From an uncultured Roseburia sp. (GTDB taxonomy: Bacteria > Bacillota > Clostridia > Lachnospirales > Lachnospiraceae), in NCBI GenBank assembly GCA_944380515.1, contig CALWHT010000050.1, forward strand, positions 1 through 64,000: a stretch of 64,000 nucleotides of DNA. The letters run 5' to 3'. Made by a program: the position numbers and the translations under genes. Below the pieces are notes generated by a model. It saw only the letters and a list, made by a program, of their open reading frames with translations. It was not told the DNA's origin and did no database searches. The first letter of the stretch is position 1. Every line of letters starts with the position of its first letter. Positions 5,490 through 26,774 of this stretch are shown here, piece after piece.

Positions 5490-5498
5490 GCAGCAGGA

Positions 5499-9788: not shown

Positions 9789-9840
9789 GGACGCCTGTTT
9801 TACGGGAGCAAAGATTATCAAACGGAAACGGAGAGCAAAC

Positions 9841-12159
9841 ATGAAAAAGAATTGGAACACATGGAAATGCCGTCTGACGGCATGGATTATGGCACTTCTT
9901 GTGCTGCTTGGAACCGTGCCGCAGGATGCGGCTGTCCTTGCGGCCGAGGGCAGCGCGCAGGCGGCACAGCAGCAGACGATTACCGGCTTTGCCGGGCTGT
10001 CCGGGGAACAGTCCGAAATACATATTACGGGGCGGGTGTCCGAAGACCGGCTGCTTGCCAAAATGCCGGCGTCTCTGGAGGTATATTTAAACGGTTCTTC
10101 CGAGCCGACATCCATTCCGGTTACCTGGCACAGTATCGGTGATTACGAGGGGACGAATTATTATTCCTACGGTTATACGCCGCAGTGGGATACGGACACC
10201 TATACCCTGGGCGCGGGGCTTTCGGATGAAATTCCGTATGTCGCAGTCTTTATAAAACCGGTTTCCAATTTTAAAGGAGCGTCTATTTCCAGCAGCCAGA
10301 TGGCGGTCAATGAAAAGACGATTTATAATTTCCTGAAAAAAGAGCTAAAACTGAATACGGCGGCCGCGTGCGGCGTATTGGCGAATATCCAGAGTGAATC
10401 TGCCTTTAATCCGACAGTCAGCGTAATCGATACCAATGGAAAAACCAGCTACGGCATCTGTCAGTGGAACGGTCCCCGTTTTGAAATGTTAAAGGATTAT
10501 TGCAGCCAGTACGGCTATGATTACAGGACATTGGAGGGGCAGCTTTATTTTCTGAAATATGAGCTGGAGCATACGGAGGCCAGCGCGTTTTCCAGGGTAA
10601 AAAATGTGGATAATACCGCGGACGGAGCCTATACGGCTGGCTATAACTGGGCGCGTTATTTTGAGCGCTGCGCCAGCGTATACCATGAATGGCGGGCAAA
10701 GCTCGCGAGAGATACCTACTGGCCGAAATACGTGTCGGACAGTATTGCGGAAGACAAGACCACGTATCAGATCACTTATGAGCTGTACGGCGGGAAAAAT
10801 AACAGTGCAAATCCGAATACCTACAAGGCATCCACCAGTACGATTACACTCAAAGAGCCGACAAAAAAAGGCTATACCTTTCAAGGTTGGTATAAGGAAA
10901 GCAGCATGAAGACGAAGGTATCCTCCATTCCTTACGGTTCTTCGGGCAATCTGAAGCTGTATGCGAAATGGGAGGCGAATCAATATACCATCCAATTCAA
11001 CGGAAATAAAGCGACCAGCGGCAGTATGTCCGCTATGAAGTCCAGAGAATATGACAGCAGCTATCGTTTAAGCGCCAATAAGTATAAGCGCAAGGGCTAT
11101 CAGTTTGCCGGCTGGAATACGAAAGCGGACGGCAGCGGCAAGGCCTATGCCAATAGGGAGGAAGTCGAAAATCTGTCGTCAAAAGACGGGGCGAAGCTCA
11201 CACTCTATGCGCAGTGGACGCGGGAAAGCTATAAGATTACCTATAAGACGAACGGTGGAAAGCTTTCAAGCGGAACGACAAAAAAGTATCATGTAAATAC
11301 CAAAACCTTTACATTAAAAAATCCTGTCCGTACAGGGTATACCTTCGAGGGCTGGTATAAGGATTCGAAGTTTAAAAACAAAATCACCCAGGTAAAAAAG
11401 GGAAGTACCGGAAATCTTACGCTTTACGCAAAGTGGAGCATCAATACATATAAAATCAAATATCAGGGGAACGGCGCGACCAGCGGTTCCATGAAAAGGA
11501 CACTGACCTGCAAATACGGAAATACCTATACGCTGGCGAAGAACAAGTTCAAACGGACCGGCTATGTATTTGAGGGCTGGAATACCAAAAAAGACGGTAC
11601 GGGGGATTGGTATGAGGACCGCGCCGACATTAAGAATATATCAAAGAGAGACGGAAAAACCATCACGCTCTATGCGCAGTGGAGCAAAAAGCCCTATACC
11701 ATCAGCTATGCATTAAACGGCGGAACCATGACAAAGAGCAACCGCAGCACATATTACGTTGATACAAAGACTTTTACGTTGAAGGCGCCGGAGCGCGAAG
11801 GCTACACCTTCCAGGGCTGGTACACGGAAAAAGACTTCAAGCATAAGATTACCCGAATTAAAAAAGGAACGCGCAAAAATTATAAACTTTATGCAAAATG
11901 GAAGGTGAATTCCTATGAAATTCAGTTTGACGGCAACGGAGCGGACAGCGGGAACATGGAAACGCTTAAGAACTGTAAATACGGAAGTACATACACGCTG
12001 CCCGGCAACGGATTTCAGAAAGCCGGGTATCAGTTTATCGGCTGGAGCACTCAGCCGGACGGCAGCGACAGCTTTTACGGGGATATGGCCGAGGTGACAA
12101 ATCTGTCATTCGAAAATGGAGCATCGGTAACGCTGTACGCGCAGTGGGAGACGGAGTAA
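9841..12159 (+). CDS. secreted protein with phage-type lysozyme domain and six InlB/Flg_new repeats
   Basis: This is a 772-residue exported protein. A signal peptide spans about residues 1-37. A phage tail lysozyme-like domain (Phage_lysozyme2 type) lies at about 150-295, with GVLANIQSESAFNP and YGICQWNGPRFEML. Six Listeria-Bacteroides (Flg_new/InlB B) repeats follow from about 308 to the end, each ending in LYAKW or LYAQW. The lysozyme-like part keeps the Glu in NIQSES expected as the catalytic acid and should cut glycan strands; the repeats are beta-grasp modules used for adhesion. I chose the ATG at 9841 because the signal peptide starts there; an in-frame ATG at 9787 lies in the preceding terminator. 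It follows another large wall-active secreted protein, so the two may act together at the surface. Confidence 0.85.
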   Translation: MKKNWNTWKCRLTAWIMALLVLLGTVPQDAAVLAAEGSAQAAQQQTITGFAGLSGEQSEIHITGRVSEDRLLAKMPASLEVYLNGSSEPTSIPVTWHSIGDYEGTNYYSYGYTPQWDTDTYTLGAGLSDEIPYVAVFIKPVSNFKGASISSSQMAVNEKTIYNFLKKELKLNTAAACGVLANIQSESAFNPTVSVIDTNGKTSYGICQWNGPRFEMLKDYCSQYGYDYRTLEGQLYFLKYELEHTEASAFSRVKNVDNTADGAYTAGYNWARYFERCASVYHEWRAKLARDTYWPKYVSDSIAEDKTTYQITYELYGGKNNSANPNTYKASTSTITLKEPTKKGYTFQGWYKESSMKTKVSSIPYGSSGNLKLYAKWEANQYTIQFNGNKATSGSMSAMKSREYDSSYRLSANKYKRKGYQFAGWNTKADGSGKAYANREEVENLSSKDGAKLTLYAQWTRESYKITYKTNGGKLSSGTTKKYHVNTKTFTLKNPVRTGYTFEGWYKDSKFKNKITQVKKGSTGNLTLYAKWSINTYKIKYQGNGATSGSMKRTLTCKYGNTYTLAKNKFKRTGYVFEGWNTKKDGTGDWYEDRADIKNISKRDGKTITLYAQWSKKPYTISYALNGGTMTKSNRSTYYVDTKTFTLKAPEREGYTFQGWYTEKDFKHKITRIKKGTRKNYKLYAKWKVNSYEIQFDGNGADSGNMETLKNCKYGSTYTLPGNGFQKAGYQFIGWSTQPDGSDSFYGDMAEVTNLSFENGASVTLYAQWETE
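10759..12156 (+). repeat. six Flg_new/InlB B repeats in three alternating pairs
   Basis: Odd copies have NGG near the start and GWYK before LYAKW. Even copies have GNGATSGSM near the start and GWNTK before LYAQW. Each unit is about 70-75 codons, so the array looks like three copies of a two-module block. Confidence 0.8.
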
Positions 12160-12165
12160 AGCAAG

Positions 12166-13344
12166 ATGCAGCACGGATACGGAAGAACCATTACCGCCTG
12201 TTTTACAGGGTACATTGTGCAGGCGATCGTCAATAATTTTGTGCCGCTTTTGTTTCTTACGTTTCAGGAAAGCTACCGGATACCGCTGTCTCAGATTACG
12301 ATGTTGGTCACGATTAATTTCGGAATCCAGCTTCTGATTGATTATCTGTCGGCGAGGTTCGTCGATAAAATCGGGTATCGGATGGCGGTTGTCGCCGCGC
12401 ATGTCTGTGCGGCGGCGGGACTTTTGCTGCTGACGGTTCTGCCGGAGCTGCTCGGGAATGCTTTTATCGGAATTTTGTGTGCGGTAATCGTATACGCAAT
12501 CGGAGGCGGACTTATTGAGGTGCTTATCAGCCCTATTATGGAGGCCTGCCCTACGGATAATAAAGAGAAGGCGATGAGCCTGCTGCATTCCTTTTATTGC
12601 TGGGGGCATGTGGGCGTCGTGCTGATTTCCACCCTGTTTTTTCAGATATTCGGAATTTCAAACTGGAAGGCGCTGGCGCTGCTTTGGGCAGTTATTCCGG
12701 CGGTCAATGCCTTTGTGTTCGCAAGAACGCCGATTGCCTCCCTGACGGAGGATGGGACGGCAGGGCTTACCATACGGGAGCTTGCCGTAAACAGGCTGTT
12801 CTGGTTTCTCATGCTGATGATGCTTGCCGCGGGAGCAAGCGAGCAGGCAGTCAGCCAGTGGGCGTCCACATTTGCGGAGCAGGGGCTCGGTGTCAGCAAA
12901 ACCGTCGGCGACCTGGCAGGGCCCATGTCCTTTGCGGTAATGATGGGGCTGTCGCGCCTCTATTACGGGAAATACGGTGAAAAAATAGATTTGGAACGTT
13001 TTATGGCAGGAAGCTGCGTGCTATGTATTCTGTCTTATCTGATGATTGTATTTATCCCCATTCCCGCACTCGGTCTTGTGGGCTGTGCGCTTTGCGGCCT
13101 TTCGGTCGGTATTCTCTGGCCCGGCACCTTCAGCAAGGCGTCCGCATCCATTCGCGGAGGCGGAACGGCGATGTTCGCGTTTTTGGCGCTGGCCGGGGAT
13201 TTGGGCTGTGCCGCCGGCCCGACGCTTGCCGGCGCGGTCTCAAGCTGTTTTGAGGATAACCTGAGAGCCGGAATCCTGGCGGCAGTGATTTTTCCCGTGC
13301 TTCTGCTTGTGGGACTTTATGCATGCAGAGCAGAACGGTTCTGA
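12166..13344 (+). CDS. MFS transporter
   Basis: This 392-residue, strongly hydrophobic protein has about 12 membrane segments and the MFS loop 2-3 signature in ARFVDKIGYRMAV (about residues 64-76). The first helix keeps FTGYIVQAIVNNFVPLLFLTF. It resembles the FucP-like branch of sugar permeases, but the substrate is not readable. It starts seven bases after the lysozyme-like gene with only a weak ribosome site (GGAG), so it may depend on read-through from that gene. Confidence 0.85.
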   Translation: MQHGYGRTITACFTGYIVQAIVNNFVPLLFLTFQESYRIPLSQITMLVTINFGIQLLIDYLSARFVDKIGYRMAVVAAHVCAAAGLLLLTVLPELLGNAFIGILCAVIVYAIGGGLIEVLISPIMEACPTDNKEKAMSLLHSFYCWGHVGVVLISTLFFQIFGISNWKALALLWAVIPAVNAFVFARTPIASLTEDGTAGLTIRELAVNRLFWFLMLMMLAAGASEQAVSQWASTFAEQGLGVSKTVGDLAGPMSFAVMMGLSRLYYGKYGEKIDLERFMAGSCVLCILSYLMIVFIPIPALGLVGCALCGLSVGILWPGTFSKASASIRGGGTAMFAFLALAGDLGCAAGPTLAGAVSSCFEDNLRAGILAAVIFPVLLLVGLYACRAERF

Positions 13345-13392
13345 TGTGCTGCGGACAAGGACGGTTGTTTGCCTCATAAAAACAAAAAATAC

Positions 13393-13421
13393 TTGCAATC
13401 TTTATTTTCACATGCTATGCT
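13393..13421 (+). promoter_or_regulatory. promoter of the amino acid symporter gene
   Basis: TTGCAA (13393-13398) and TATGCT (13416-13421) are 17 bases apart, about 50 bases before the symporter start. Confidence 0.65.
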
Positions 13422-13473
13422 ACTGTGCAGTGGTACTTTTATACCGTATAAAACGAAAAGGAAAGAGGCAGGT

Positions 13474-14859
13474 ATGTTACAGGCAATTGACGATTTCATA
13501 TGGGGACTTCCCCTGATTATCCTGATTCTTGCAGTCGGGATTTTTTTGACGATTCGGCTTCGGGGACTCCAGATTACGAAGCTTCCGCTGGCAATCCGCC
13601 ATATTATCGCGAACGAGAAGGATGGAAAGGAGGGCGAGGTTTCCAGCTTCGGGGCGCTGTGTACGGCGTTATCCGCCACCATCGGAACCGGAAATATTGT
13701 CGGCGTGGCGACCGCTTTAGTGGCGGGAGGACCGGGAGCGCTGTTTTGGATGTGGGTTGCCGCCCTGCTTGGGACAGCGACGAAATATGCCGAATGTCTC
13801 CTTGCCATCAAATACCGTGTGGTGGAAGAAGACGGGCATGTGGTGGGAGGCCCATTTTATTACATAGAAAACGGAATGGGGAAAAAATGGAGATGGCTCG
13901 GCTGTATTTTCGCGTTTTTCGGCGTAGGGGTCGGGCTGCTCGGAATCGGTACATTTACCCAGATTAACGGAATTACCAGTGCGGTCAATGACTTTTTTGA
14001 CCCGCAGAACGCATGGACGGTTTCTTTGTTCGGCAGGGATTATTCCTGGACGGTTGTTATCGCGGGACTGGTTCTCACGCTGTGCGTGGCGCTTGTGATT
14101 ATCGGCGGGATCAAGCGTATTTCCTCCGTGGCGCAGGTTATCGTACCGATTATGGCGCTTTTGTATGTGGGAGTGGTTCTGGTGATTCTGCTGACGCACC
14201 TGACAGAGATTCCGGCGGCGGTTGTAGAGATTGTGGAAAGCGCCTTCGGCCTTCGGGCGGTCGCGGGAGGAGCGGCCGGAGCGGTTCTGGTTGCCATGCA
14301 GAAGGGGATCGCGAGAGGGATTTTCTCGAATGAGGCGGGACTCGGAAGCGCGCCGATTGCAGCCGCAACCGTGAAAACGGATGAACCCGTGGCACAGGGG
14401 CTGGTTTCCATGATGGGAACCTATATAGACACGATTATCATCTGTACCATGACGGGGCTTTCCGTTGTCATCACGGGAACCTGGAATATAGGGCTCGACG
14501 GCGTTGCGGTGACGACAAGGGCATTTCAGCTTGGACTCCCGTTCCCGGAGCAGATATCGTCGTTTATCCTGATGGTGTGTCTTGTATTTTTTGCGTTTAC
14601 GACAATCCTTGGTTGGAACTATTACAGTGAAAAATGTCTGGAATATCTGGTGGGCAACCGTCCCGGTATTTTAAAGGGCTACCGCTGGCTGTATATTCTT
14701 GCGGTATTCATTGGGCCGTTCATGACCGTTTCGGCGGTATGGACAATTGCCGATATTTTTAACGGCCTGATGGCGCTGCCGAACCTGGTCGCGCTCGTCG
14801 CCTTAAGCGGAGTGACCGTTGCCGAGACAAAAAAATATTTTGAGAAACAGAGAAACTGA
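13474..14859 (+). CDS. sodium:alanine/glycine symporter (AGCS family)
   Basis: The 461-residue integral membrane protein carries the AGCS signature GTGNIVGVATALVAGGPGA (about residues 68-86), and FSNEAGLGSAPIAAA (about 285-299) further on. Members import alanine or glycine with sodium. There are about ten or more hydrophobic segments. The ATG at 13474 follows AAAGAGGCAGG, and an upstream ATG at 13369 would precede the promoter. It is probably its own unit, with rarA 38 bases downstream. Confidence 0.93.
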   Translation: MLQAIDDFIWGLPLIILILAVGIFLTIRLRGLQITKLPLAIRHIIANEKDGKEGEVSSFGALCTALSATIGTGNIVGVATALVAGGPGALFWMWVAALLGTATKYAECLLAIKYRVVEEDGHVVGGPFYYIENGMGKKWRWLGCIFAFFGVGVGLLGIGTFTQINGITSAVNDFFDPQNAWTVSLFGRDYSWTVVIAGLVLTLCVALVIIGGIKRISSVAQVIVPIMALLYVGVVLVILLTHLTEIPAAVVEIVESAFGLRAVAGGAAGAVLVAMQKGIARGIFSNEAGLGSAPIAAATVKTDEPVAQGLVSMMGTYIDTIIICTMTGLSVVITGTWNIGLDGVAVTTRAFQLGLPFPEQISSFILMVCLVFFAFTTILGWNYYSEKCLEYLVGNRPGILKGYRWLYILAVFIGPFMTVSAVWTIADIFNGLMALPNLVALVALSGVTVAETKKYFEKQRN

Positions 14860-14897
14860 AAAAAGCGATGTTTGTCAGGTGAAAGCGGGGAAATGGC

Positions 14898-16232
14898 ATG
14901 GAACAGATGACGTTGTTTGATGACAGGGAGCAGTGGCTGGGCGAGCGGATGAGCGCACCGCTGGCAAGCCGGCTGCGCCCGAAGACACTGGAGGAGTTTG
15001 TCGGGCAGGAGCATTTGCTCGGAAAAGGAAAAATGCTGCGGCAGCTCATCGAGCGGGACCAGATATCCTCCATGATATTCTGGGGACCGCCCGGAGTCGG
15101 GAAGACGACGCTTGCCAGTATCATTGCGGGCAGGACAAAGGCAGATTTTATTAACTTCAGCGCGGTGACAAGCGGAATCAGGGAAATCAAAGAGGTCATG
15201 AATCAGGCGGAGAACAGCCGGAAAATGGGAATCCGCACCGTGCTGTTTGTGGACGAGATACATCGTTTTAACAAGGCGCAGCAGGATGCTTTTCTGCCGT
15301 TTGTGGAGAAGGGGAGTATTATCCTGATTGGAGCAACGACCGAGAACCCGTCCTTTGAGGTAAATGCCGCGCTTTTGTCCCGCTGCAAGGTATTTGTGCT
15401 GAAGGCGCTTTCGGAGCAGAATCTTGTTGCGCTTTTAAAGCATGCGCTGACGAGCCCGGACGGCTTCGGGGGACAGCGGGTGCAGATGACGGAGAAGCAG
15501 CTTTGTGCCGTTGCCGCCGTGGCGAACGGCGACGCGAGGACGGCGCTCAATACGCTGGAGATGGCGGTGCTCAACGGCGAGATTGGCTCTGACGGCTCAA
15601 TCACGGTGACGGACGAGGGCATGGAGCAGTGTATCAGCAGAAAATCGCTTCTCTACGACAAAAACGGGGAGGAGCACTATAATCTGATTTCCGCGCTCCA
15701 TAAGTCTATGCGCAATTCCGATCCGGACGCTGCGGTTTATTGGATGCAGCGCATGTTGGAGGGCGGGGAGAATCCGCTTTACATTGCCAGAAGGCTGATT
15801 CGTTTCGCAAGCGAGGATGTCGGGATGGCGGACAGCCAGGCGCTTTCGGTGGCCGTTGCCGCTTATCAGGCCTGCCATTTTAACGGAATGCCGGAATGGG
15901 ACGTGAATCTGGCGCAGGCGGTCGTGTATCTTTCCATGGCTCCGAAATCGAACGCGCTCTACGCGGCCTGTGAGGAGGCAAAGCACGACATCCGCACGCG
16001 GAGGACGGACCCCGTTCCGCTCCAAATCTGCAATGCGCCCACGGAACTGATGAAAGAGCTGGATTACGGAAAGGGCTATGAGTATGCCCATGATTATGAG
16101 AATAAGCTGACAAAAATGCAGTGTCTGCCGGAGGCGCTTGCGGACCGGGAATATTACCGGCCCACGACGCAGGGACAGGAGGCAGCGGTGCGGGAGAAGC
16201 TTGATAAGATAAGGGCATGGAAAAAAGAGTAA
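14898..16232 (+). CDS. rarA: RarA/MgsA-type AAA+ ATPase (replication-associated recombination)
   Basis: The 444-residue protein has Walker A (WGPPGVGKTT, about residues 55-64), Walker B (FVDEIHRFNKAQQDAFLPF, about 116-134) and the sensor GATTENPSFEVN, all typical of RarA (MgsA, Mgs1/WRNIP1 family). The C-terminal half is the tetramerisation region with YWMQRMLEGGENPLYIARRL. RarA acts at stalled replication forks with SSB. The length is normal. The unit ends in a strong terminator. Confidence 0.95.
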   Translation: MEQMTLFDDREQWLGERMSAPLASRLRPKTLEEFVGQEHLLGKGKMLRQLIERDQISSMIFWGPPGVGKTTLASIIAGRTKADFINFSAVTSGIREIKEVMNQAENSRKMGIRTVLFVDEIHRFNKAQQDAFLPFVEKGSIILIGATTENPSFEVNAALLSRCKVFVLKALSEQNLVALLKHALTSPDGFGGQRVQMTEKQLCAVAAVANGDARTALNTLEMAVLNGEIGSDGSITVTDEGMEQCISRKSLLYDKNGEEHYNLISALHKSMRNSDPDAAVYWMQRMLEGGENPLYIARRLIRFASEDVGMADSQALSVAVAAYQACHFNGMPEWDVNLAQAVVYLSMAPKSNALYAACEEAKHDIRTRRTDPVPLQICNAPTELMKELDYGKGYEYAHDYENKLTKMQCLPEALADREYYRPTTQGQEAAVREKLDKIRAWKKE

Positions 16233-16252
16233 TGAAATGGAATAGGGGGTTC

Positions 16253-16309
16253 AAAAAGGACCGAATTTCCGGGAAATGTAAATGTTTCCGGAAATCCGGT
16301 CCTTTTTTT
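16253..16309 (+). terminator. terminator after rarA
   Basis: A long inverted repeat (AAAAAGGACCG then ATTTCCGG, matched by CCGGAAAT then CGGTCCTTTTT) ends in a T tract. The stem exceeds 20 pairs with two small defects. Confidence 0.92.
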
Positions 16310-16354
16310 GTGGTGGTGCGCCTGGCGGCGCATGTTTCCGGGAAGCTGCCCGGG

Positions 16355-16421
16355 TTCATAAAATCTTCAAAAAGTCTTCATGCGGCGCCTGATTTTATCT
16401 TCATAATTATTCCATTAAAAT
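16355..16421 (+). promoter_or_regulatory. direct repeats at 11-base spacing and weak promoter before the vanG-type gene
   Basis: TTCA occurs at 16355, 16366 and 16377, exactly 11 bases apart, and again at 16400. Three of the four are part of TCTTCA (16364, 16375, 16398). This helical-turn spacing is characteristic of OmpR/PhoB-class response regulators, the class to which VanR belongs. A possible -10, TAAAAT at 16416-16421, has no good -35, as expected for an activated promoter. The binding protein is inferred, not shown. Confidence 0.5.
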
Positions 16422-16466
16422 AGAGGAAACAAAGAACAAAGCGCTGCGCGGAATGAATGGAGGATT

Positions 16467-17516
16467 ATGATGAAAGATAAAAAGAAAATTGCCGTTTTTT
16501 TCGGGGGATGTTCCACAGAGTATGAGGTATCGCTGCAATCGGCTGCGGCGGTCATCGCGCATATTGATACGGAAAAGTATGAGACGGTTTTCATCGGACT
16601 TGACGGAAAAACCGGGGAATGGCTGTGGTACCGGGGTACGCCGGAGCTGATCGAAAAGGACCGCTGGCGCAGGGAAGGAGCATGTGTTCCGGTGTACCCG
16701 GCCATGGACCGGAGCGTGTCCGGGTTTGTGTACTGGGAGGCGCAGGGGATGAAAACCATAAGCGTTGATGCGGCGCTTCCGATTCTGCACGGAAAAAATG
16801 GGGAGGACGGGACGCTGCAGGGCGTGCTGGAGCTGGCGGGGATTCCGGTGATCGGCTGCGGTCTTTTATCCTCGGCGCTGTGTATGGACAAGGAGCTGGC
16901 GCATCGGATTGCGCAAATGGAAGGAATCAGGACGGCCGAATCTCTCACAGTACAAAAACCCTACGACGGGGAGAAATTAAAACTGGAGGCACAGAAAATC
17001 GGTTATCCGCTGTTTGTAAAACCCGTCAAATCAGGCTCATCCTTTGGCATCACAAAGGTAAGCGCGCAGGAACAGCTTTTGCCAGCGGTGGAGACTGCGT
17101 TTGCCCATGATGACAGAGTGGTTTTGGAGCAGGAGATCCGCGGCTTTGAAGTGGGGTGCGCCGTTTGCGGCACAGAGGAGCTTTTCATCGGAGCGGTGGA
17201 CGAAATCGAGCTGTCGGACGGCTTTTTTGACTATACGGAAAAATACACCTTAAAAACCTCGAAAATTCATGTGCCCGCCCGTATCTCCGGGGAAAAAGCG
17301 GAGGAAATTAAGCGGACGGCAGCGGTGCTTTACCGTGCGCTCGGGTGCAGCGGTTTTGCACGTGTGGACATGTTTCTGACACCGGACGGCGAGATTTACT
17401 TCAATGAAATCAATACGATTCCTGGTTTTACCACGCACAGCCGCTATCCGGGCATGATGAAGGCTGCGGGCATTTCCTTTGCGGAGCTTGTGGAGCGCAT
17501 TCTGGAAACCGCATGA
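16467..17516 (+). CDS. vanG: D-alanine--D-serine (or D-Ala) ligase, VanG type
   Basis: This ATP-grasp ligase of 349 residues resembles VanG closely along its length: CSTEYEVSLQSAAAV, PILHGKNGEDGTLQG, SALCMDKELAHR, SGSSFGITKV, DEIELSDGFFDYTEKYTL and the ATP/Mg site EINTIPGFTTHSRYPGMM. VanG-type enzymes join D-Ala to D-Ser, giving peptidoglycan precursors with low vancomycin affinity; ordinary Ddl joins two D-Ala. Neighbouring VanXY- and VanT-type genes support the D-Ser assignment. The ATG at 16467 follows TGGAGG; an ATG directly after it (16470) is also possible. No vanR/vanS is adjacent. If this were the only Ddl of the cell it would have to make D-Ala-D-Ala; that cannot be judged here. Confidence 0.82.
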   Translation: MMKDKKKIAVFFGGCSTEYEVSLQSAAAVIAHIDTEKYETVFIGLDGKTGEWLWYRGTPELIEKDRWRREGACVPVYPAMDRSVSGFVYWEAQGMKTISVDAALPILHGKNGEDGTLQGVLELAGIPVIGCGLLSSALCMDKELAHRIAQMEGIRTAESLTVQKPYDGEKLKLEAQKIGYPLFVKPVKSGSSFGITKVSAQEQLLPAVETAFAHDDRVVLEQEIRGFEVGCAVCGTEELFIGAVDEIELSDGFFDYTEKYTLKTSKIHVPARISGEKAEEIKRTAAVLYRALGCSGFARVDMFLTPDGEIYFNEINTIPGFTTHSRYPGMMKAAGISFAELVERILETA

Positions 17517-17579
17517 AGCTTTTCGGGAAAGCAGACGGCAAAAAGAAAACGCAGTGACATACGGAAAGGAAGGTGCGGT

Positions 17580-18329
17580 ATGGGAAACGTTGTTTTAAAG
17601 CAGGAAATGGCGTGCCGGGGACCGTTGATTTTAGTGACGCCGGAGTACCCGCTCCGTGTCCGTCCCGGGCGGGAGCAAATGCAGGCTCCGCTGCGGGAAA
17701 CGCCCGAAATATTGCTGGCAAAAGAGGCGAAAGAGGCGTTGTGCGCTTTACTTGCCGAGACGGGCGGCGAAGCGGAAATCACGGGAGTGAGCGGCTTTCG
17801 GACGAGAGAGGAACAGGAAAAAATCTGGGAGGACAGCATTCGGGAAAACGGACCCGCGTTTACAAAAAAATTTGTGGCGCTGCCCGGCCACAGCGAGCAT
17901 GAAACGGGGCTTGCCATTGATTTGGCGAAAAGACAGCCCGGAATTGATTTTATCTGTCCTGAATTTCCGAGGGACGGAAGCTTTGGGGTATTTCGGGATA
18001 AATTGCCGCGGTACGGCTTTATCGAGCGCTATCTGGAAGGGAAAGAAAACATTACCGGAATCGGGGCGGAGCCCTGGCATTTCCGCTATGTGGGATTTCC
18101 GCATTCCGCCATAATAGCGGAGCGCGGAATGGTACTGGAGGAATACATCGAATTTTTAAAGGAGGGGGCCTCCCTGCGAAAGCCGTATCGGTATGGAGGC
18201 ATAGCCGTGTTTTATGTGCCGCTTTGCGGGGAAACGGAAAAGGCGGTATGCCTGCCGGATGCGCCCTGCTCGGTTTCCGGCACCAACGAGGGAGGCTTTG
18301 TGATTACTGTTTGGGAGGACCTGCCATGA
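17580..18329 (+). CDS. VanXY/VanY-family D,D-dipeptidase/carboxypeptidase
   Basis: The 249-residue metallopeptidase has the M15B/VanY zinc site: GHSEHETGLAIDL (about residues 102-114) and EPWHFRYVG (about 163-171), which supply the two His and the Asp of the zinc shell and the catalytic Glu. No signal peptide or membrane anchor is seen, which fits cytoplasmic VanXY rather than membrane VanY. VanXY enzymes remove D-Ala-D-Ala dipeptide and trim pentapeptide ending in D-Ala so that the D-Ser form prevails. It starts 63 bases after vanG behind GGAAGGTGCGGT and overlaps the next gene by four bases. Confidence 0.82.
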   Translation: MGNVVLKQEMACRGPLILVTPEYPLRVRPGREQMQAPLRETPEILLAKEAKEALCALLAETGGEAEITGVSGFRTREEQEKIWEDSIRENGPAFTKKFVALPGHSEHETGLAIDLAKRQPGIDFICPEFPRDGSFGVFRDKLPRYGFIERYLEGKENITGIGAEPWHFRYVGFPHSAIIAERGMVLEEYIEFLKEGASLRKPYRYGGIAVFYVPLCGETEKAVCLPDAPCSVSGTNEGGFVITVWEDLP

Positions 18330-20530
18330 AAACAAAAGAGTATGGAGCGGTGGATCTGTTCCGCCTGCCCGCGGCTTTTATGGTCGTGGCGATTCATACG
18401 GGACCGTTTGCCGCATGGAACGGGTTTGCCGATTTTTTGTTCAGCTACTGCCTTTGCAGGGTGGCGGTACCGTTTTTTCTGATAACGACGGGATTTTTTG
18501 TGCTCGGCCCCGGCCGCGGAGAAGCGCTCTGCCGCTATCTGAAAAAAACGCTGCTCCTGTATGCCGCTGCAACGCTCCTTTATGTCCCGGTGAGCTGGTA
18601 TGCCGGCAATCTGCCCGGGAATGCGGCGGAGGCCTTTCGGCAGCTCCTTTTTGACGGGACGTTTTATCATCTCTGGTATTTTCCGGCGGCGCTGCTTGGC
18701 TGTGTTCTGACGGCGTTTCTGTTAAAACGCTCCGTGAAGGCGGTCATACTGTTTGCTGTCTGCGCTTATCTGGTTGGACTGGGAGGTGACAGTTATTACG
18801 GGATCGTCTGCCGGGCCGGCTGGATAAACACGGCGTATGACGGAATATATTTCGTCAGCAGCTATACCAGAAACGGCATTTTTTATGCCCCGGTGTTTTT
18901 ACTGATGGGTACGCTTATATGCCGCGGCCGCCGGAATCGGAACAGGAGGCGCTATCTTCCGGTGTTGGCAGTGTTTCTGCCGCTTTTGTGCGCAGAGGGG
19001 GCATTCACCTTTTTGGCGGGCTGGCAGCGCCATAACAGTATGTACCTTTTGCTGCTTCCGGTCTGCTGGTGCCTTTTTTGCCTGCTTCTCTCCGCGAAAG
19101 CGAAAGCGCCGTCCTGGGTGCGCGGCGTCTCCATGCTGATTTATATCCTGCATCCGCTTGTGATTATTCTGGTGCGCGGGGCAGCGAAAGCGGCGGGACT
19201 GACTGCTTTGTTTGTGGAAAACAGTTTTGTGCATTATCTGACCGTTTGTCTGGTATCATTTGGAATTGCCCTTTTCGCGGTGTATGCCGGGGCGCGGTTA
19301 AAATGCTGCATTCGGGTAAAGAAAAGCCCGGAAAGCCCAGCGGCCCGATGGGAACAGAAGAAACCTCAAAATGCATCCGACCGGGCAGTCCTGACAACAG
19401 ATAAAGAAAGCTGCCGGGCGTGGATAGAGCTGAACCTGAAAAATCTGGCCTGGAATGTCGGACAGCTTCAGGGACTGCTTCCCGCTTCTTGTAAGCTGAT
19501 GCCTGCCGTAAAGGCAAATGCCTACGGCCATGGAGCGGTAGAAATCAGCCGGGCGCTGCAAAAGCTTGGGATTTCCGATTTCTGTGTCGCGTCGGAGGAG
19601 GAGGGAGCCCTGCTCAGAGAAGCGGGCATTACAGGACAAATCCTTGTGCTGGGATACACGCCGGTCTCAAAAATCGACGAACTGTGCCGTTATGATTTGA
19701 CCCAGACCATTGTGGATTTGGATTATGCCAGGGACCTAAGCGCCTTAGGCCGGCGTGTTGCCGTTCATGTAGGGGTGGATACGGGCATGCACCGTCTCGG
19801 GGAGGACTGCGGAAGGATAGAAAAAATCCTGCGTATTTTTCATCTGCCGAATTTGAACGTGACAGGTGTGTTTTCCCATCTGTGCGCCTCGGATGGGGTC
19901 TCAGAGGAGGAGCGGGAGTTTACCGAAATGCAGATTGCCCGTTTCGCGGAGGTGGTTGCGGCGCTGCGCCAGAACGGAATCACCGGGTTTCAGACACATT
20001 TATTCGGAAGCTACGGCATACTCAATTACAGCCGTTCCTGCGGGGAAAGCTACGATTATGCCAGAGCCGGAATCGCGCTCTACGGTGTGCCAAGCAGTCC
20101 GGGAGACCGGGTGGAGGCTCCGGTTACGCTGCGCCCTGTTTTATCCCTGAAAGCAAAAATTGCCTGCGTAAAAACCTTAAAGAAGGGTGAGACGGCCGGT
20201 TACGGGCTTGCGTATACGGCAAAGGAGGAACGTATCATCGCCGTGATTTCCATCGGCTATGCGGACGGCGTGCCGCGGACGCTTTCCGGCAGGGGGCATG
20301 TTCTTATCCGGGGAAAAAGGGCTCCGGTCATCGGGCGAATCTGCATGGATCAGATGCTTGTGGACGTCACCGGTATTGCGGATGCCGTGCCGGGCGAGAC
20401 GGCGGTCTTAATCGGAAGCAGCGGCGCAGAAACCATATCTGCCGCGGAGCTTGCGGCGGAGGCGGACACGATTTCCAATGAAATACTGAGCCGACTCGGC
20501 AGCAGGCTCACACGGCTTGTCCTTGAATGA
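18326..20530 (+). CDS. VanT-type membrane serine/alanine racemase
   Basis: The 734-residue protein is a fusion. The N-terminal half (about residues 1-335) is a membrane acyltransferase-3-like domain of about ten helices. The C-terminal half (about 365-734) is a complete fold-type III PLP alanine racemase: PLP lysine in MPAVKANAYGHGA, catalytic Tyr region in GYGLAYTA, and IGRICMDQMLVDVTG. This architecture is that of VanT, which supplies D-Ser (and D-Ala) in VanC/E/G clusters. I chose the ATG at 18326, in a 4-base ATGA overlap with the VanXY stop. The membrane domain is thought to aid L-Ser uptake in VanT. Confidence 0.85.
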   Translation: MKTKEYGAVDLFRLPAAFMVVAIHTGPFAAWNGFADFLFSYCLCRVAVPFFLITTGFFVLGPGRGEALCRYLKKTLLLYAAATLLYVPVSWYAGNLPGNAAEAFRQLLFDGTFYHLWYFPAALLGCVLTAFLLKRSVKAVILFAVCAYLVGLGGDSYYGIVCRAGWINTAYDGIYFVSSYTRNGIFYAPVFLLMGTLICRGRRNRNRRRYLPVLAVFLPLLCAEGAFTFLAGWQRHNSMYLLLLPVCWCLFCLLLSAKAKAPSWVRGVSMLIYILHPLVIILVRGAAKAAGLTALFVENSFVHYLTVCLVSFGIALFAVYAGARLKCCIRVKKSPESPAARWEQKKPQNASDRAVLTTDKESCRAWIELNLKNLAWNVGQLQGLLPASCKLMPAVKANAYGHGAVEISRALQKLGISDFCVASEEEGALLREAGITGQILVLGYTPVSKIDELCRYDLTQTIVDLDYARDLSALGRRVAVHVGVDTGMHRLGEDCGRIEKILRIFHLPNLNVTGVFSHLCASDGVSEEEREFTEMQIARFAEVVAALRQNGITGFQTHLFGSYGILNYSRSCGESYDYARAGIALYGVPSSPGDRVEAPVTLRPVLSLKAKIACVKTLKKGETAGYGLAYTAKEERIIAVISIGYADGVPRTLSGRGHVLIRGKRAPVIGRICMDQMLVDVTGIADAVPGETAVLIGSSGAETISAAELAAEADTISNEILSRLGSRLTRLVLE

Positions 20531-20664
20531 GAACGAACGACGGTGTCACAGAACTTTCGTATTTTTTCGAGACAAATCGAGGTGATTATGATAGAATATT
20601 GCTGAATCTTCATACGCTAAAATGAAAAATACAGGAATACGGTCAGGAGAAAAGGAGGAGCGCC

Positions 20665-20895
20665 ATGATGAATCCGGCATCTATTATGAAGCTTATGAAT
20701 GCGAAAAATAAATTTACGGAAAACCATCCCAAATTCACCGCATTTTTAAATGCGGTATTTTCCGGCGGCATCACCGAAGGAACTATTATTGAGATTACCG
20801 TGACAAAACCGGGCGAGGAAGCGGTTACCACGAACATGAAAATTACGCAGTCCGATTTGGATTTATTTTCCGAATTAAAAGATTTGGCGAAGTGA
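20665..20895 (+). CDS. small conserved hypothetical protein
   Basis: This is a 76-residue soluble protein with a short N-terminal helix (SIMKLMNAKNKF) and a beta-rich middle (GTIIEITVTKPGEE). I do not recognise a domain. The start has two adjacent ATGs after AAAGGAGGAG. The stop is 11 bases from the GH31 start, so the two are probably one transcript. Confidence 0.7.
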   Translation: MMNPASIMKLMNAKNKFTENHPKFTAFLNAVFSGGITEGTIIEITVTKPGEEAVTTNMKITQSDLDLFSELKDLAK

Positions 20896-20906
20896 GGGAG
20901 GAAGTG

Positions 20907-23161
20907 ATGTCAGGAAAGAGGGTTTCCCATCGGGTAGACGGAAATAAAATCGAGATAACATTTGAGCAGGGGACGGCAGTTTTCTCCGTCCTTCGGGAGG
21001 ATATTCTCAATGTATTTGTCCCACGCGAGACAAAGGAGCACCGCTCGAAGGCAATCGAAGGAGAAAAATGCGTTCCCGTGGAATTTACGGTGACGGAGGA
21101 AGCGGAGGCACTTGTCATAAAAACGCCGGCGCTTTGGGCAAAGGTATATGACGGTTTTTTTGTGGACTTCTATAAAAAGGACGGGACGCTTTTGTGCGCG
21201 GACTCCCGGCAGGGAAGAAGTTTTGGCAGCCAGCTCAGTGAAAAGTTTATTTCTTTTTTGGAGGCGGAGGGGCACGATGTGCCGGACGCGTCCGATTTCC
21301 ATTATCCGGTCGAAATCGTAAAGCAGATGGACGGCGACGAGAAGTTTTACGGGCTGGGGGATAAGACCGGCTTTTTGAACAAAAGGGATTATGAATATGA
21401 AAACTGGAATTCCGATATTCCGCAGGCGCACACGGAAAGCTACCGGGCGCTCTATAAATCCGTTCCGTTTTTGATTACGTTAAAGACCGCGGGTGTATAC
21501 GGCATCTTTTTGATAATACCTATAAGTCCTATATCAATCTCGGCAAGGAAAATACCGCGTACTATTATTATGGGGCGGACGGCGGCAATCTGGACTATTA
21601 TTTTATCTCCGGCGGGCATATGCCGCAGGTTGTGGAGGGCTATACCTGGCTGACCGGGCGCACGCCGCTGCCGCAGCTTTGGACGCTGGGGTATCATCAG
21701 TCACGGTGGGGCTATGAATCAGCGGAGGACATCCGGGAGGTTGCAGGGCATTACCGTAAGCTTCGGATTCCCTGTGACACCATCCACTTTGATATTGATT
21801 ATATGGACGGCTACCGTGTATTTACCTGGAATGAAAAAGACTTCGGCGCGCCCGGGGTCGTCATCCGGGAGATTGCGGACAGCGGCTTTAAAAGCGTATG
21901 CATTATTGACCCGGGCGTAAAGCTGGATCCCGGGTATGCGGTGTATGATGAGGGAATGGAGCAGGACTATTTTGCGAAAACACCGGAGGGGCAGACGTAT
22001 GTCAACGCGGTCTGGCCGGGGGACGCCGTCTATCCCGATTTCGGAAATCCCGAGGTAAGGAGCTGGTGGGCGAAAAAGCAGTCTTATCTCACCGGGCTTG
22101 GGGTAAGAGGTACCTGGAACGATATGAACGAGCCCGCGAGCTTCCGCGGGGAGCTTCCGGCGGACGTGGTGTTTACCGACGAGGATAAAAAGAGCAGCCA
22201 CGCGGCAATGCACAACGTCTACGGCCATCTGATGGCAAAGGCGACCTACGAGGGGTTAAAGCAGGCGGACGGAAAGCGCCCGTTTGTCATCACAAGGGCC
22301 TGCTATGCGGGAACCCAGAAGTATTCGACCGTCTGGACAGGGGATAACCAGAGCCTTTGGTCCCACTTGCAGATGGCGGTGCCGCAGCTTTGTAATCTGG
22401 GCTTAAGCGGCTTTGCCTTTGCGGGAACTGACGTGGGCGGATTCGGCGCGGACTGTACGCCGGAGCTTTTGTGCCGCTGGGTGCAGGTCGGGGCGTTCTC
22501 CCCGCTGTTCCGCAACCATTCGTCAAAGGGAAGCACACGTCAGGAGCCGTGGCAGTTTGACGAAACAACCATTGCCGTGAACCGGAAATTCATAGAGCTC
22601 CGCTATCGGCTGCTGCCTTATTTTTATGATTTGTTTCATGAATGTGAAAAGACAGGACTTCCGATTATGCGGCCGCTGGTGCTTCACTATGAAGATGATC
22701 CCGAGACCTTCAATTTAAACGGGGAATTTCTGGTGGGAGAAAAGCTTCTGGTGGCTCCGGTACTTGAGCAGGGTGCCGTAAAAAAGCTTGTTTATCTGCC
22801 GGAGGGTACCTGGTACGATTTTGAGACAGGCAGACCCTATGAGGGAAAGCAGTATTATATGGTAGACGCACCGCTTGATGTCTGTCCGATGTTTGTAAAG
22901 GAGGGCGGCATGATTCCGACCTGGGAGCTTTGCCAGTATGTGGGCGAGAAGCCGTATGATACCTTAAAAATGCTGGTATTTCCGGGGAACGGAACGTATC
23001 TTCATTACCGGGATAACGGTGCGGATTTTGCTTACCGGGACGGCGCGTATCATTTATATGAGTTTTCCGGCGTACCGGGACAGAAGGAGGTTTCGGTGAA
23101 GCTTCTGCATGAGGGCTATACGCCTTACCGGGAAATTGTTTTTGAAACAAGAGGCTTTTAA
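20907..23161 (+). pseudogene. GH31 alpha-glucosidase, split by a one-base frameshift
   Basis: The N-terminal part (to about 21510) has the GH31 beta-sandwich and ends in a frame reading TAGVYGIF. From the T run at 21507-21511 onward the correct frame is shifted by one. Adding one T would give GIFFDNTYKSYINLGKE and join smoothly to the catalytic domain read to 23161. The catalytic domain keeps the nucleophile Asp in WNDMNEPASF (about 22121), and STVWTGDNQSLWSHL with the acid/base Asp. GH31 enzymes release glucose from alpha-glucosides; there is no signal peptide, so a cytosolic enzyme. The corrected protein would be about 750 residues. It could be a real mutation, programmed slippage or a sequencing error at the homopolymer. 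Confidence 0.85.
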
Positions 23162-23170
23162 AATCTGCAC

Positions 23171-23196
23171 CCGCGGTTGGCTGGCGCATATGATAT
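23171..23196 (+). promoter_or_regulatory. possible sporulation-type (sigma-E/K-like) promoter
   Basis: CATATGATA fits the CATANNNTA -10 of mother-cell sigma factors. An ACC-type -35 stands about 15 bases upstream, close to but shorter than the sigma-K spacing. The match is weak and rests on consensus alone. Confidence 0.3.
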
Positions 23197-23223
23197 AGTG
23201 ATGTTATCTATAGGGAGTATAGA

Positions 23224-23703
23224 GTGGACTATAATCAGGAGCAGTTTTTCCGTATGCAGTTCGATGCGCCCAAAATGCCTTTTTATATGAGCTATCCGAT
23301 GCAGAATCTGTATCTGACAGAAATGGAATATGAGAAAGACATGGAGCGCATGAAGGAGCTGTATCCAAGGGAAGTAAAGCGGATTCTCGAATTTGTGGAA
23401 GATGAATGTGATAAAATGGAATATGAGGGAAGCCTGATGTTCGACGAGTACCCGGACCGCCTGATGCTGGAGATGGTCGTAGACCGGATTTATCAGAATG
23501 CAGCCGGCGAGAAACAGGATATGGAGGCGGAACAGTACTGGGGCGGCATGACGCCTCCTCCACCGCCGCCGGGCCCGGGAAGGCCGCCGCAGGGACCGCC
23601 CAGAGGGCAGGGAGATCATTTAAGGAGCCTGATTGGCGTACTGTTAAACAACGAGATGTACCGCAGGCGCTGCCGGCACAGGCGGTGCAGGCGCTGGTGG
23701 TAG
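23224..23703 (+). CDS. hypothetical Clostridia protein with basic Arg/Cys/Trp tail
   Basis: The 159-residue protein has a Met/Tyr-rich N-terminus, a helical acidic middle (MERMKELYPREVKRILEF, DECDKMEYEGSLMFDEYPD), a Pro/Gly stretch at about residues 111-137 and a tail of YRRRCRHRRC then RRWW. I recognise the pattern from small spore-former proteins of unknown function, but no domain name can be given. It starts with GTG behind GGGAG. The basic Cys-rich tail and possible mother-cell promoter suggest a spore-associated protein; this is only inference. Confidence 0.7.
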   Translation: MDYNQEQFFRMQFDAPKMPFYMSYPMQNLYLTEMEYEKDMERMKELYPREVKRILEFVEDECDKMEYEGSLMFDEYPDRLMLEMVVDRIYQNAAGEKQDMEAEQYWGGMTPPPPPPGPGRPPQGPPRGQGDHLRSLIGVLLNNEMYRRRCRHRRCRRWW

Positions 23704-23744
23704 ACGCTGTTTATTAAGAAAAAAGAAAGAATCGGAATTAGCCA

Positions 23745-23773
23745 TTGCGGATTTTTCCAAAAATGCATACAAT
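23745..23773 (+). promoter_or_regulatory. promoter of the 839-residue membrane protein gene
   Basis: TTGCGG (23745-23750) and TACAAT (23768-23773) are 17 bases apart, about 48 bases before the GTG start. Confidence 0.65.
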
Positions 23774-23803
23774 ATAGCTATCGCGTCTGCGGTAGCTATT
23801 TTT
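23774..23803 (+). terminator. hairpin with T tract
   Basis: ATAGCTATCGC pairs with GCGGTAGCTAT, followed by five T. It probably ends the upstream transcript. It also overlaps the expected start of the next transcript, so it may be a leader hairpin. Confidence 0.7.
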
Positions 23804-23820
23804 ATGAAGGAGGGACGATC

Positions 23821-26340
23821 GTGCGGAAGGGTGCAGTAAAAGCAATCGTCTTAATAATAATATTTATAGTCGGGCTTGTCGTATTCAGTGTTATGACAAA
23901 CCATGTCAATGAGGATCTGACAACGGAGATGGAGGAAGCAACGCTTCCGGTTATCACATTGTTTCAGGGTGAAACGGAAATCAATGAGCTTTACGGCTAT
24001 CGCACGGAGATGAATGCCGCTTACATGCGGGATACGATTACTCCAATCGGGGAGGACCGAAAGCTTCCGATTACGATTCAAAGCTATCAGACGGCGGTGG
24101 ATGCCGTTTCCTACGAAATCAGAAGCCTCGACGGCGAGCGTCTGATTGCCAATGCGGATGTCAATTCCTATGAGGATAATAAGGGAATCATATCCGCGGA
24201 GCTTGAGATTCAGAACCTGCTGAAGGAGGATGAAGAATATCTGCTGATCATTATGCTGGAAAGCGGAAATGAGCAGATTTATTATTATACAAGGCTTGTG
24301 GAAGCGCCGGAAAGCCACGTGGAGGAAAGTATCGCGTTTGTAAAGGATTTTAATAATAAGACCTTTAACAGTGAGACGGTGGGAACGCTTTCAACCTATA
24401 TGGAAAAAACGACCGGGGACAATACGACGCTGCAGTTTGTTTCGCTCAATTCGTCGTTAAAGCAGGTCTCCTGGGCGAATCTGCCGGTGGAGCGGCTGAC
24501 CGCGCCCGTTCCTTCCATCAAGGAAATTACGGACACCTACAATGTGATCGTGCTCAATTATGTGGTTACGAGTACCGGGGAGAACGGGGAAAATGAATAC
24601 TATAATGTCGAGGAGTATTACCGGGTCCGCTACACCAGCAGCCGGATGTATCTATTGAATTTCGAGCGCACCACAAACCAGATTTTCCGCCGGGAGAGTG
24701 CGGCTTTTTACGACAATTATATCCAGCTCGGCATACGCTCCGCCGATGTGGAATATCGGGCAAACGAGACAGGAACAACGGTTGCCTTCGTGCAGGAGGG
24801 GGAACTCTGGAGCTACAACGAGACGGAGAACACGCTGGCAAAGGTGTTCAGCTTCCGTGGCTATGAAGGGATTGACGAGAGGGAGAATTACGGCGAACAT
24901 GATATAAAAATTGTCAGCATTGACGAGACAGGAAGCCTGGACTATATTGTTTACGGCTACATGAACCGCGGACTTCACGAGGGGGAGGTTGGAATAGCGG
25001 TTTACCACTATGACAGTCTGGCGAACACCAACGAGGAAATGATATTTATCCCGTCCGATAAATCCTATGAGGTAATGAAGTCCGAAATGGGACAGTTAAT
25101 GTATGTAAACGAGGGCGGCGAGCTGTATCTTATGATGGACGGTACGGTTTATGGCATTGATTTGTCAACGCTTGAAGTAAGGAAACTGATTGAAGGGCTG
25201 GACAGTAAGGTCTTTGCCGTTTCCGCAAGCAACCGCTTCTTTGCGTGGACACAAGACGGAGAAAACAGTGAGATTGTCCATGTCATGGATTTTTCCGATG
25301 AAACCACAAGGGAAGTGACGGAGGGCAGCGGAAAATATGTAAGACCCCTGGGCTTTATGGAAGAGGACTTTGTGTATGGGGTCGCGAACGCGGCGGATGT
25401 TTCCACGGAGGCTGCGGGCAATACCATAGTTCCGATGTATCAGGTAAAAATAGCCGACGTGACCTCAGATACCATCGAAATTTTAAAAACGTATGAAAAA
25501 AGCGGATATTATGTGTCAGATGTTGAAATTGATGATTATACAATGTACCTAAACCGCATACAGTATAATGGGACGGCCTATGTGGAGGCGGATCAGGATA
25601 TGATCATGAACCGGGAGGGCGACGGGGCAGCGTCGGTGGAGGTGCGCAGCAGCAGCTCGGACATAAAGCAGACACAGTACCAGCTTTCGCTGGCAAATCC
25701 GGTCAGCGAAAAGGAGCCCAGGCTTCTTACACCCAAAGAGACAATTCTTACAGAGGAGCGTAATGTCACGCTCACGCAGGATGGAACCGGGGAGCGGTAT
25801 TATGTTTATGTAAAGGGTGACGTCATCTTTACCACGGATGATGTGACGGAGGCAATCGGCCAGGCAAACGAGAACATGGGAGTGGTGATAGGCGCCGACC
25901 AGAAATATGTCTGGAAACGATCCAGAAATGCGACCCAGCCGGCATTTTCGGATATCGCGGTCGGAGAGGAGGATATGGATTCCGGAAGCATTGCAAAATG
26001 TATCAATGCCATGCTTGAGAAGGAAGGAATTAATATCAGCGTGAACGCACTGATTGCCGGAGGTGAGACGCCAAAAACGATTCTGGGAAATACGATGAGG
26101 GACGCGCAGATTTTGGATTTGAGTGGCTGTAATGTGGAGGAGGTGCTTTATTATGTAAGCTGCGGAAGTCCTGTTTTTGCCATGACCGGAAGCGAGGAAG
26201 CTGTACTTTTGGTCGGTTATGATGCGGATAATGTTATCGTTTATGATTCGGATACCGGGACAAACCAAAGAATTAGCCTTGAGGAGGCGGATGAAGTATT
26301 TTCCGGTGCCGGAAACGTATTCTTAACCTATCTGAAATGA
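23821..26340 (+). CDS. large membrane-anchored extracytoplasmic protein of unknown function with C39-like C-terminus
   Basis: This 839-residue protein has one N-terminal membrane helix (about residues 7-25), then a long extracytoplasmic part. The middle (about 300-560) has repeated short beta segments such as YVWKRS, EGELWSYNETENTL and GTVYGIDLSTLEVRKL, suggesting a beta-propeller. The last 110 residues resemble a papain-like C39 fold (SCGSPVFAMTGSEEAVLLVGYDADNVIVYD). The His normally before VLLVGYD is absent (EAVLLVGY), so the C39-like part is probably a non-catalytic pseudopeptidase. It starts with GTG behind AAGGAGGG. The function is unknown. Confidence 0.75.
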   Translation: MRKGAVKAIVLIIIFIVGLVVFSVMTNHVNEDLTTEMEEATLPVITLFQGETEINELYGYRTEMNAAYMRDTITPIGEDRKLPITIQSYQTAVDAVSYEIRSLDGERLIANADVNSYEDNKGIISAELEIQNLLKEDEEYLLIIMLESGNEQIYYYTRLVEAPESHVEESIAFVKDFNNKTFNSETVGTLSTYMEKTTGDNTTLQFVSLNSSLKQVSWANLPVERLTAPVPSIKEITDTYNVIVLNYVVTSTGENGENEYYNVEEYYRVRYTSSRMYLLNFERTTNQIFRRESAAFYDNYIQLGIRSADVEYRANETGTTVAFVQEGELWSYNETENTLAKVFSFRGYEGIDERENYGEHDIKIVSIDETGSLDYIVYGYMNRGLHEGEVGIAVYHYDSLANTNEEMIFIPSDKSYEVMKSEMGQLMYVNEGGELYLMMDGTVYGIDLSTLEVRKLIEGLDSKVFAVSASNRFFAWTQDGENSEIVHVMDFSDETTREVTEGSGKYVRPLGFMEEDFVYGVANAADVSTEAAGNTIVPMYQVKIADVTSDTIEILKTYEKSGYYVSDVEIDDYTMYLNRIQYNGTAYVEADQDMIMNREGDGAASVEVRSSSSDIKQTQYQLSLANPVSEKEPRLLTPKETILTEERNVTLTQDGTGERYYVYVKGDVIFTTDDVTEAIGQANENMGVVIGADQKYVWKRSRNATQPAFSDIAVGEEDMDSGSIAKCINAMLEKEGINISVNALIAGGETPKTILGNTMRDAQILDLSGCNVEEVLYYVSCGSPVFAMTGSEEAVLLVGYDADNVIVYDSDTGTNQRISLEEADEVFSGAGNVFLTYLK

Positions 26341-26425
26341 CCCTTAAAATACGAGAAAAATGCATAAAAAATCAGACGTTGAGAAAAATACTTCGTTGAA
26401 CTTTAACAGATTTTATTTAAGTGTA

Positions 26426-26454
26426 TTGCAAATTGTACATGAATGGGTTATATT
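26426..26454 (+). promoter_or_regulatory. promoter of the HPr-like gene
   Basis: TTGCAA (26426-26431) and TATATT (26449-26454) are 17 bases apart, 35 bases before the start codon. Confidence 0.75.
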
Positions 26455-26488
26455 TTGAGAAGTACTTAAAAAGAGGAAGTGGAGGAAT

Positions 26489-26743: not shown

Positions 26744-26774
26744 TTTGTTTTTTTAATTGAGGAGGGAGAGACTC

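Follow-up and report, generated by a model that had tools for sequence, protein, structure and literature searches.

A vanG-type operon of an uncultured Roseburia that may have come under a conserved two-component system other than VanRS

A vanG-type gene cluster with no vanRS pair beside it raises the question of whether it is under control at all and, if so, under whose. Such a cluster lies in a 64,000-nucleotide stretch of DNA from an uncultured Roseburia sp. of the Lachnospiraceae (GenBank assembly GCA_944380515.1, contig CALWHT010000050.1, positions 1 to 64,000; the whole stretch is called the window here), in which three plus-strand genes, for a ligase, a VanXY-like peptidase and a VanT-like racemase, span positions 16467–20530. 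We think it probable that this is a complete VanG-type D-alanine-D-serine (D-Ala-D-Ser) operon that has no adjacent vanRS and is switched on in trans, most likely by a response regulator encoded on contig C10 of the same genome (the C10 regulator). The promoter of the operon closely resembles that of the distant, conserved two-component system to which this regulator belongs, so that the system may control the operon. That the operon has been taken over by this conserved Lachnospiraceae system in place of VanRS, its promoter being a near-copy of a self-regulated one, we hold to be about an even bet.

The ligase, peptidase and racemase

The operon consists of the following genes:

16467–17516, plus strand: VanG-type D-alanine:D-serine ligase gene, 349 aa; start at ATG 16467, or at ATG 16470, which is better spaced from GGAGG at 16459–16463
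17580–18329, plus strand: VanXY-like D,D-dipeptidase/D,D-carboxypeptidase gene, 249 aa
18326–20530, plus strand: VanT-like fused gene, 734 aa, its start inside the vanXY stop

By profile, structure match and residues, the first gene is predicted to encode a VanG-type D-Ala:D-Ser ligase. It passes the NCBIfam VanG profile NF000091 (539.2 bits against a cut-off of 495), and its nearest solved structure is the VanG ligase PDB 4fu0 (E 7e-126); identity to the vanC ligase of Enterococcus gallinarum is about 45%. At three positions it has D245, F254 and R326, where the Ddl of the same genome has A, Y and L, and D, F and R stand there in all 69 aligned van-type rows, the window's own included. We take the equivalent residues of VanG, Asp243, Phe252 and Arg324, to be the substrate-pocket residues for D-Ser selectivity.

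The VanXY-like protein contains the Pfam VanY domain, and its nearest solved structure is a VanXY entry (PDB 4f78, E 5e-58), with which it aligns over the stretches SEHxTGLAID and EPWHFRYVG; the zinc-peptidase motifs of the VanY domain are present, and these stretches presumably supply the metal ligands. The VanT-like protein joins an N-terminal membrane part (Pfam Acyl_transf_3) to a C-terminal pyridoxal phosphate racemase part. It passes the NCBIfam profile vanT-G-Cterm (524.3 bits, cut-off 460) and not the full-length vanT-CELN (580, cut-off 900), with serine racemase 4ecl as nearest solved structure (E 7e-107). Near the C-terminus it has Asn (TISNE) where the genome's own Alr has Tyr (FNYE); we assume that replacement of this alanine-racemase active-site Tyr by Asn marks a VanT serine racemase. 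Among relatives' loci, the best 80 of 434 from a scan of a genome collection, a VanXY-like open reading frame (ORF) was found in 46, certain contigs ending early, and VanT as a single fused ORF in 7 by the ORF test; elsewhere the membrane and racemase parts are often separate ORFs.

Separate housekeeping enzymes are encoded elsewhere in the genome. Four matches to Dala_Dala_lig_C exceed its cut-off. One is the window ligase, another the product of a ddl that lies immediately 5' of a murF-like gene on contig C61; the other two are weak (47 bits and 45 bits), sit in frames exceeding 1000 aa and are probably other ATP-grasp enzymes. Ala_racemase_C matched twice, to VanT and to the product of alr on contig C54. 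With a separate ddl and a separate alr in the genome, the window cluster is therefore not the housekeeping set. A first-pass annotation of this DNA had described three genes with VanG, VanXY and VanT features and a four-base overlap of the last two, forming a chromosomal-looking D-Ala-D-Ser cluster. Profiles, structures and the overlap itself (ATGA, 18326–18329) bear this out far beyond chance, and the outcome that annotation named as fatal, a ligase grouping with Ddl in a genome with no other ddl, is not what we find, given the separate ddl and alr.

If these assignments are right, VanT would import L-serine and racemise it to D-serine, the ligase would couple D-Ala with D-Ser, and the VanXY-like peptidase would clip the D-Ala-D-Ala ends produced by the housekeeping Ddl. 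The product of the operon would be cell-wall precursors ending in D-Ala-D-Ser.

The vanG promoter and the C10 regulator

Across the whole genome, 39 sequences matched the VanR profile (NF033117), about 20 of them full length; the best reached 281 bits, short of the 350-bit cut-off. The VanS profile had 24 matches, with a top score of 168 bits against a cut-off of 400. The genome-wide check for ddl, vanR and vanS that the first-pass annotation proposed thus recovered the ddl on C61 and, at these cut-offs, neither regulator gene. As calibration, seven response regulators beside vanG-type ligases in other genomes were scored: five gave 353–409 bits, the others 329 and 276. The C10 regulator, at 267 bits, does not pass. 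In a 48-row tree the genome's own regulators of contigs C41, C13 and C10 branch with the regulator of locus L062, apart from the 38 remaining regulators linked to ligases. Scores and tree together indicate that the genome has no VanR orthologue, but three VanR-sister pairs. At L062 itself the VanR-sister pair (188–7103), related to the C10 and C13 pairs and including a kinase of 876 aa, lies about 2.4 kb off a vanG ligase, from which a single reversed ORF separates it.

The features on which the regulatory argument turns are these:

16253–16307, plus strand: hairpin then T run after rarA, a likely terminator separating the operon from rarA
16355–16413, plus strand: response-regulator-type repeat array, with TTCA at 16355, 16366 and 16377 (11-bp steps) and TTCATAATTATTCC at 16400–16413
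16416–16421, plus strand: probable -10 element TAAAAT, whose in-register counterpart at the C10 regulator promoter is TACAAT
Contig C10, 20547–21302, minus strand: C10 response regulator gene, a VanR sister paired with an 828-aa histidine kinase

The 828-aa kinase has HisKA and HATPase_c as its only domains. When the vanG leader after the terminator was compared with ten of the genome's own response-regulator promoters, that of C10 alone matched (score 25, 59 bp ungapped), the other nine scoring 8–12 and 100 shuffles for C10 reaching at most 13. Two half-sites fall within the alignment, as do the TTCATAATTATTCC block and the -10 element, in register. The nearest pair on the window's own contig (kinase 48925–49779, the genome's best VanS match at 168 bits; regulator 49838–50506) was considered as controller and rejected, its promoter scoring 9, no match.

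C10-type regulators (72–100% identity) are present in 15 of the 20 genomes searched. Against their 15 promoters the vanG leader scored 25, 9, 29, 20, 20, 13, 19, 20, 14, 18, 27, 19, 26, 13 and 10; ten of these exceed the shuffle maximum of 17 (60 shuffled leaders, mean 9.7). A 17-base pattern distilled from C10-type promoters was then run over 16 genomes. Its 11 exact matches comprise eight before a C10-type regulator (at 22–177 bp), two before a vanG ligase and one within an ORF. The two vanG matches lie 61 bp upstream of the ligase in the genome of the window (G000; 16365–16406 in the window) and in a sister genome of the same species group (G006), and the only exact matches in G000 are the C10 and vanG promoters. 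Six further matches carry one mismatch, four of them preceding a C10-type regulator, which makes 12 of 17 at zero or one mismatch. In G035 and G052, two genomes not used in writing the pattern, the match likewise precedes a regulator that shares 88% identity with C10. Of the 22 matches with two mismatches, 13 could be inspected, and none of these precedes a C10-type regulator.

Folding of RNA 16240–16312 gave −31.6 kcal/mol (z −5.05), with none of 200 shuffles equally stable; the hairpin at 16253–16307 was not listed by a simple terminator scan, nor TAAAAT at 16416–16421 by a sigma-70 scan. We regard TAAAAT as the probable -10 element, and a good -35 is absent, as would be expected of an activator-dependent promoter. 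Between G000 and G006 the promoter is 100% identical over 16355–16422 (68 bp), against 86% for the gap between rarA and promoter and 95% for the ligase gene; the contrast between promoter and neighbouring gap fits a site under selection.

The 11-bp phasing extends beyond this lineage. We searched 63 dereplicated vanG leaders for evenly spaced triplets of any 5-mer, at most one mismatch being tolerated. Such triples occur at spacing 11 in 27 of the 63, at the other spacings from 6 to 20 in 0 to 5, and in 60 rounds of dinucleotide shuffling 11-bp triples averaged 0.7 (maximum 4). They are found in 13 of 28 leaders with an upstream regulator pair and in 14 of 35 without. Tandem half-sites spaced by a helical turn (11 bp), 5' of a -10 element, are typical of binding by the OmpR/PhoB family, the class of VanR-G, which the accessible text of PMC4405338 describes as an activator of that family. 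The units themselves vary: a second class of vanG leader (L096–L124) has GTCA units at 11-bp intervals, in loci that have vanRS next to the cluster and in loci that do not, a third has CTTAG units, and the leaders of L060, L061, L066 and L074, which have no regulator pair in the sequence available, carry near-identical TTCAATAATTCTTAA..CTTCG in 11-bp steps.

Weighing the accounts of control

Control by the C10 regulator would work as follows. Adjacent vanRS has been lost from this genome or was never present; a phosphorylated OmpR/PhoB-family response regulator would bind the 11-bp-phased TTCA array just 5' of the -10 element; and the regulator in question would be that of C10, phosphorylated by the 828-aa kinase and activating the vanG operon as well as its own gene. 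The account is built from sequence features, namely intact genes, key residues, no VanR above cut-off, the repeat array and the promoter match, and from these we infer the enzyme activities, binding, autoregulation, inducibility and low-level glycopeptide resistance.

Several observations weigh against it. On the enzyme side, D/F/R excludes Ddl and not a D-lactate ligase, because the D-lactate ligase VanB has D, F and R as well, and the peptidase fails both NCBIfam VanXY cut-offs (equivalog vanXY 198 bits against 250; vanXY_G 191 against 500), so that we label it VanXY-like only. As for the promoter, candidate regulator and pattern were both picked after the sequences had been looked at. With as many as two mismatches allowed, the pattern finds 39 matches against 37 for a reversed control, and we therefore place weight only on matches with zero or one mismatch. 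The triple-TTCA array is a weak marker of a regulon and was set aside as such; it recurs at two further places in G000, neither with a clear gene downstream. G006 has the vanG motif, yet its C10 regulator, 98% identical, has none in the 420 bp ahead of the gene, where a different gene end is found; rearrangement or misassembly is possible there because G006 is a fragmented metagenome-assembled genome of 84% completeness. In 18 other genomes the vanG leader does not match that genome's own C10-type promoter (diagonal at most 14), and among 80 scorable vanG leaders the exact pattern occurs only in the window and in L057 (contig C41 of G006), the next best having 3 of 17 mismatches. With the other vanG leaders unmatched, the inference is restricted to one lineage and does not extend to vanG at large. 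Between promoter and C10 regulator gene, G000 and G006 (L146, L272) share a palindrome-rich element, perhaps a small repeat element, beyond which the genomes differ.

Of the alternatives, the one that survives best is that a real VanG operon is run in trans by a different OmpR/PhoB-family regulator, the C10 pair being a fellow target and not the controller. The repeat array is generic for the regulator class, the genome offers 39 VanR-profile matches of which about 20 are full length, and the vanG site is kept in G006 where the C10 site is missing. We nevertheless consider it unlikely: the motif stands before C10-type genes in 12 of the 17 closest matches, the usual mark of self-regulation, the C10 regulator is one of the genome's three regulators nearest to VanR, and the nine other own promoters tested gave no match.

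Somewhat less credible is a silent or constitutive relic, left without working control after the loss of vanRS. VanR and VanS above cut-off are indeed absent from the genome, and Clostridioides difficile has vanG clusters that are cryptic or disputed, according to the portion of PMC11326576 available; against this stand the open frames and key residues, a promoter fully conserved over 68 bp beside adjoining sequence at 86%, and the phased activator-type array. The first-pass annotation had called the cluster possibly silent or otherwise regulated. The second half of that description is supported and sharpened by the 11-bp array and its match to the promoter of a VanR sister; for the first half the sequence gives no support, since frames, key residues, ribosome-binding sites and promoter all look intact.

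A reading of ligase and racemase as a plain Ddl and a plain Alr that take no part in D-Ser metabolism can be all but dismissed, for although the family names depend on profiles and VanXY falls under its cut-offs, the genome has its own ddl beside murF and its own alr, D/F/R and the VanT Asn replace A/Y/L and Tyr of these enzymes, and the VanG and VanT-G cut-offs are passed.

Occurrence, known systems and gene neighbourhood

A vanG-type cluster that lacks adjacent vanRS is common. In 15 of 47 loci, neither the 6 kb upstream nor the 9 kb downstream contains a response regulator or kinase (the 47 being the fetched loci whose flanks extend for at least 4.5 kb upstream and at least 6 kb downstream, near-identical mouse-gut loci each counted). 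The absence of the pair, an oddity by implication of the first-pass annotation, is thus real and not rare. Mapped on the ligase tree, adjacency of vanRS changes at least seven times (17 by parsimony), certain 'no' rows being due to short contigs. A vanG-type ligase occurs in 12 of 62 same-genus genomes. Among these 12, VanR above cut-off lies beside the ligase in one (G029) and on another contig in two (G023, G033); three (G060, G045, G015) have a VanR-like protein of 329–344 bits on another contig, and in six (G000, G006, G011, G040, G032, G049) the best match is at most 283 bits. Comparison of the separate-contig vanR promoters with the vanG leaders in same-genus vanG genomes revealed no common array.

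Clusters of this kind have precedents. Chromosomal vanG-like clusters of gut Clostridia, incomplete ones included, were already known (PMC5073890, as far as its accessible text goes), and the accessible part of PMC11273654 mentions vanGXT without vanRS for Paenibacillus thiaminolyticus and P. dendritiformis. That text names no alternative regulator, whereas the promoter in the window would imply a specific one. Likewise, in one E. faecium strain vanHAX placed 3' of an rRNA operon restored resistance, the available text of PMC11702846 naming no alternative regulator. The vanG operon of E. faecalis BM4518 (vanURS-YWG-XY-T) has the same order of ligase, VanXY and VanT; in the window no vanU, vanR or vanS stands beside the operon, and the genome has no VanR above cut-off. 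In BM4518, VanR-G binds three directly repeated 12-bp sites 5' of a poor -35 promoter, with consensus (T/C)CGTANGAAA(T/A)T (PMC4405338, accessible text), whereas the repeat in the window is of TTCA type in 11-bp steps. The chromosomal vanG-vanXY-vanT cluster of C. difficile, disputed as a resistance determinant and derepressible by vanS/vanR mutations, has its own vanRS (PMC11326576, in the portion available), and the window cluster has none. The vanC cluster of E. gallinarum also combines a D-Ser ligase, vanXY and a fused vanT, with four-base-type overlaps between neighbours, but carries vanRS 3' of vanT, which the window does not.

Among the matches listed from the open-access literature, most subscription papers lying outside the search, we found no van operon that shares a promoter with a non-VanRS two-component system, which is not proof of absence. 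Regulation of this kind looks new; vanG without vanRS has already been published. Clusters of vanG type are widespread in gut Lachnospiraceae, many of them without adjacent vanRS. If the C10 system does control the operon, D-Ala-D-Ser wall synthesis would answer the signal of the 828-aa kinase, not necessarily vancomycin, a resistance operon would have been rewired into its host's own signalling, and roles of D-Ser-ending peptidoglycan beyond drug resistance would be hinted at. Should vanG promoters keep arrays for regulators encoded elsewhere, a check for adjacent vanRS could not gauge resistance potential. With one named regulator and 68 bp of promoter, the question of control can be put to a direct test.

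The neighbourhood of the operon begins with one further feature:

14898–16232: rarA-type gene, 5' of the vanG operon

The first-pass annotation had placed rarA upstream and a small gene of no known function downstream, as we also find. This rarA encodes a second RarA paralogue, a copy about 50% identical lying on contig C3 of G000 (5470–6756), and RarA of the window type (at least 64% identity) was found in 18 of 62 same-genus genomes. The 76-aa ORF directly 3' of the operon (20665–20895) has no Pfam match. An NCBIfam scan of five neighbours identified a RarA-like ATPase, an AgcS-type carrier and an alpha-glucosidase split into two pieces; the remaining ORF (12166–13344) matched nothing. The earlier statement that no vanR or vanS is adjacent holds, response-regulator and kinase queries matching no ORF in 11001–27000 of the window; the companion statement on transposase and integrase holds for the five scanned neighbours, among which there is none, the remaining neighbours lying outside that scan. 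No empty insertion site was found: in other fetched genomes the second rarA is followed by other downstream genes, the GH31 flanks being outside this comparison. Rfam gave no riboswitch or leader RNA at the vanG operon. The GH31 alpha-glucosidase 3' of the operon (20892–23161) consists of two overlapping frames where the sister locus L057 has one intact frame of 756 aa; the split is a frameshift, by mutation or sequencing error. Farther off, a SAM (S-box) riboswitch at 46817–46923 alone reaches the Rfam gathering score in the window, and a 790-aa protein (9787–12159), its translation read by eye with no search made, shows YxVxYxxNGG-type repeats resembling those of bacterial surface proteins.

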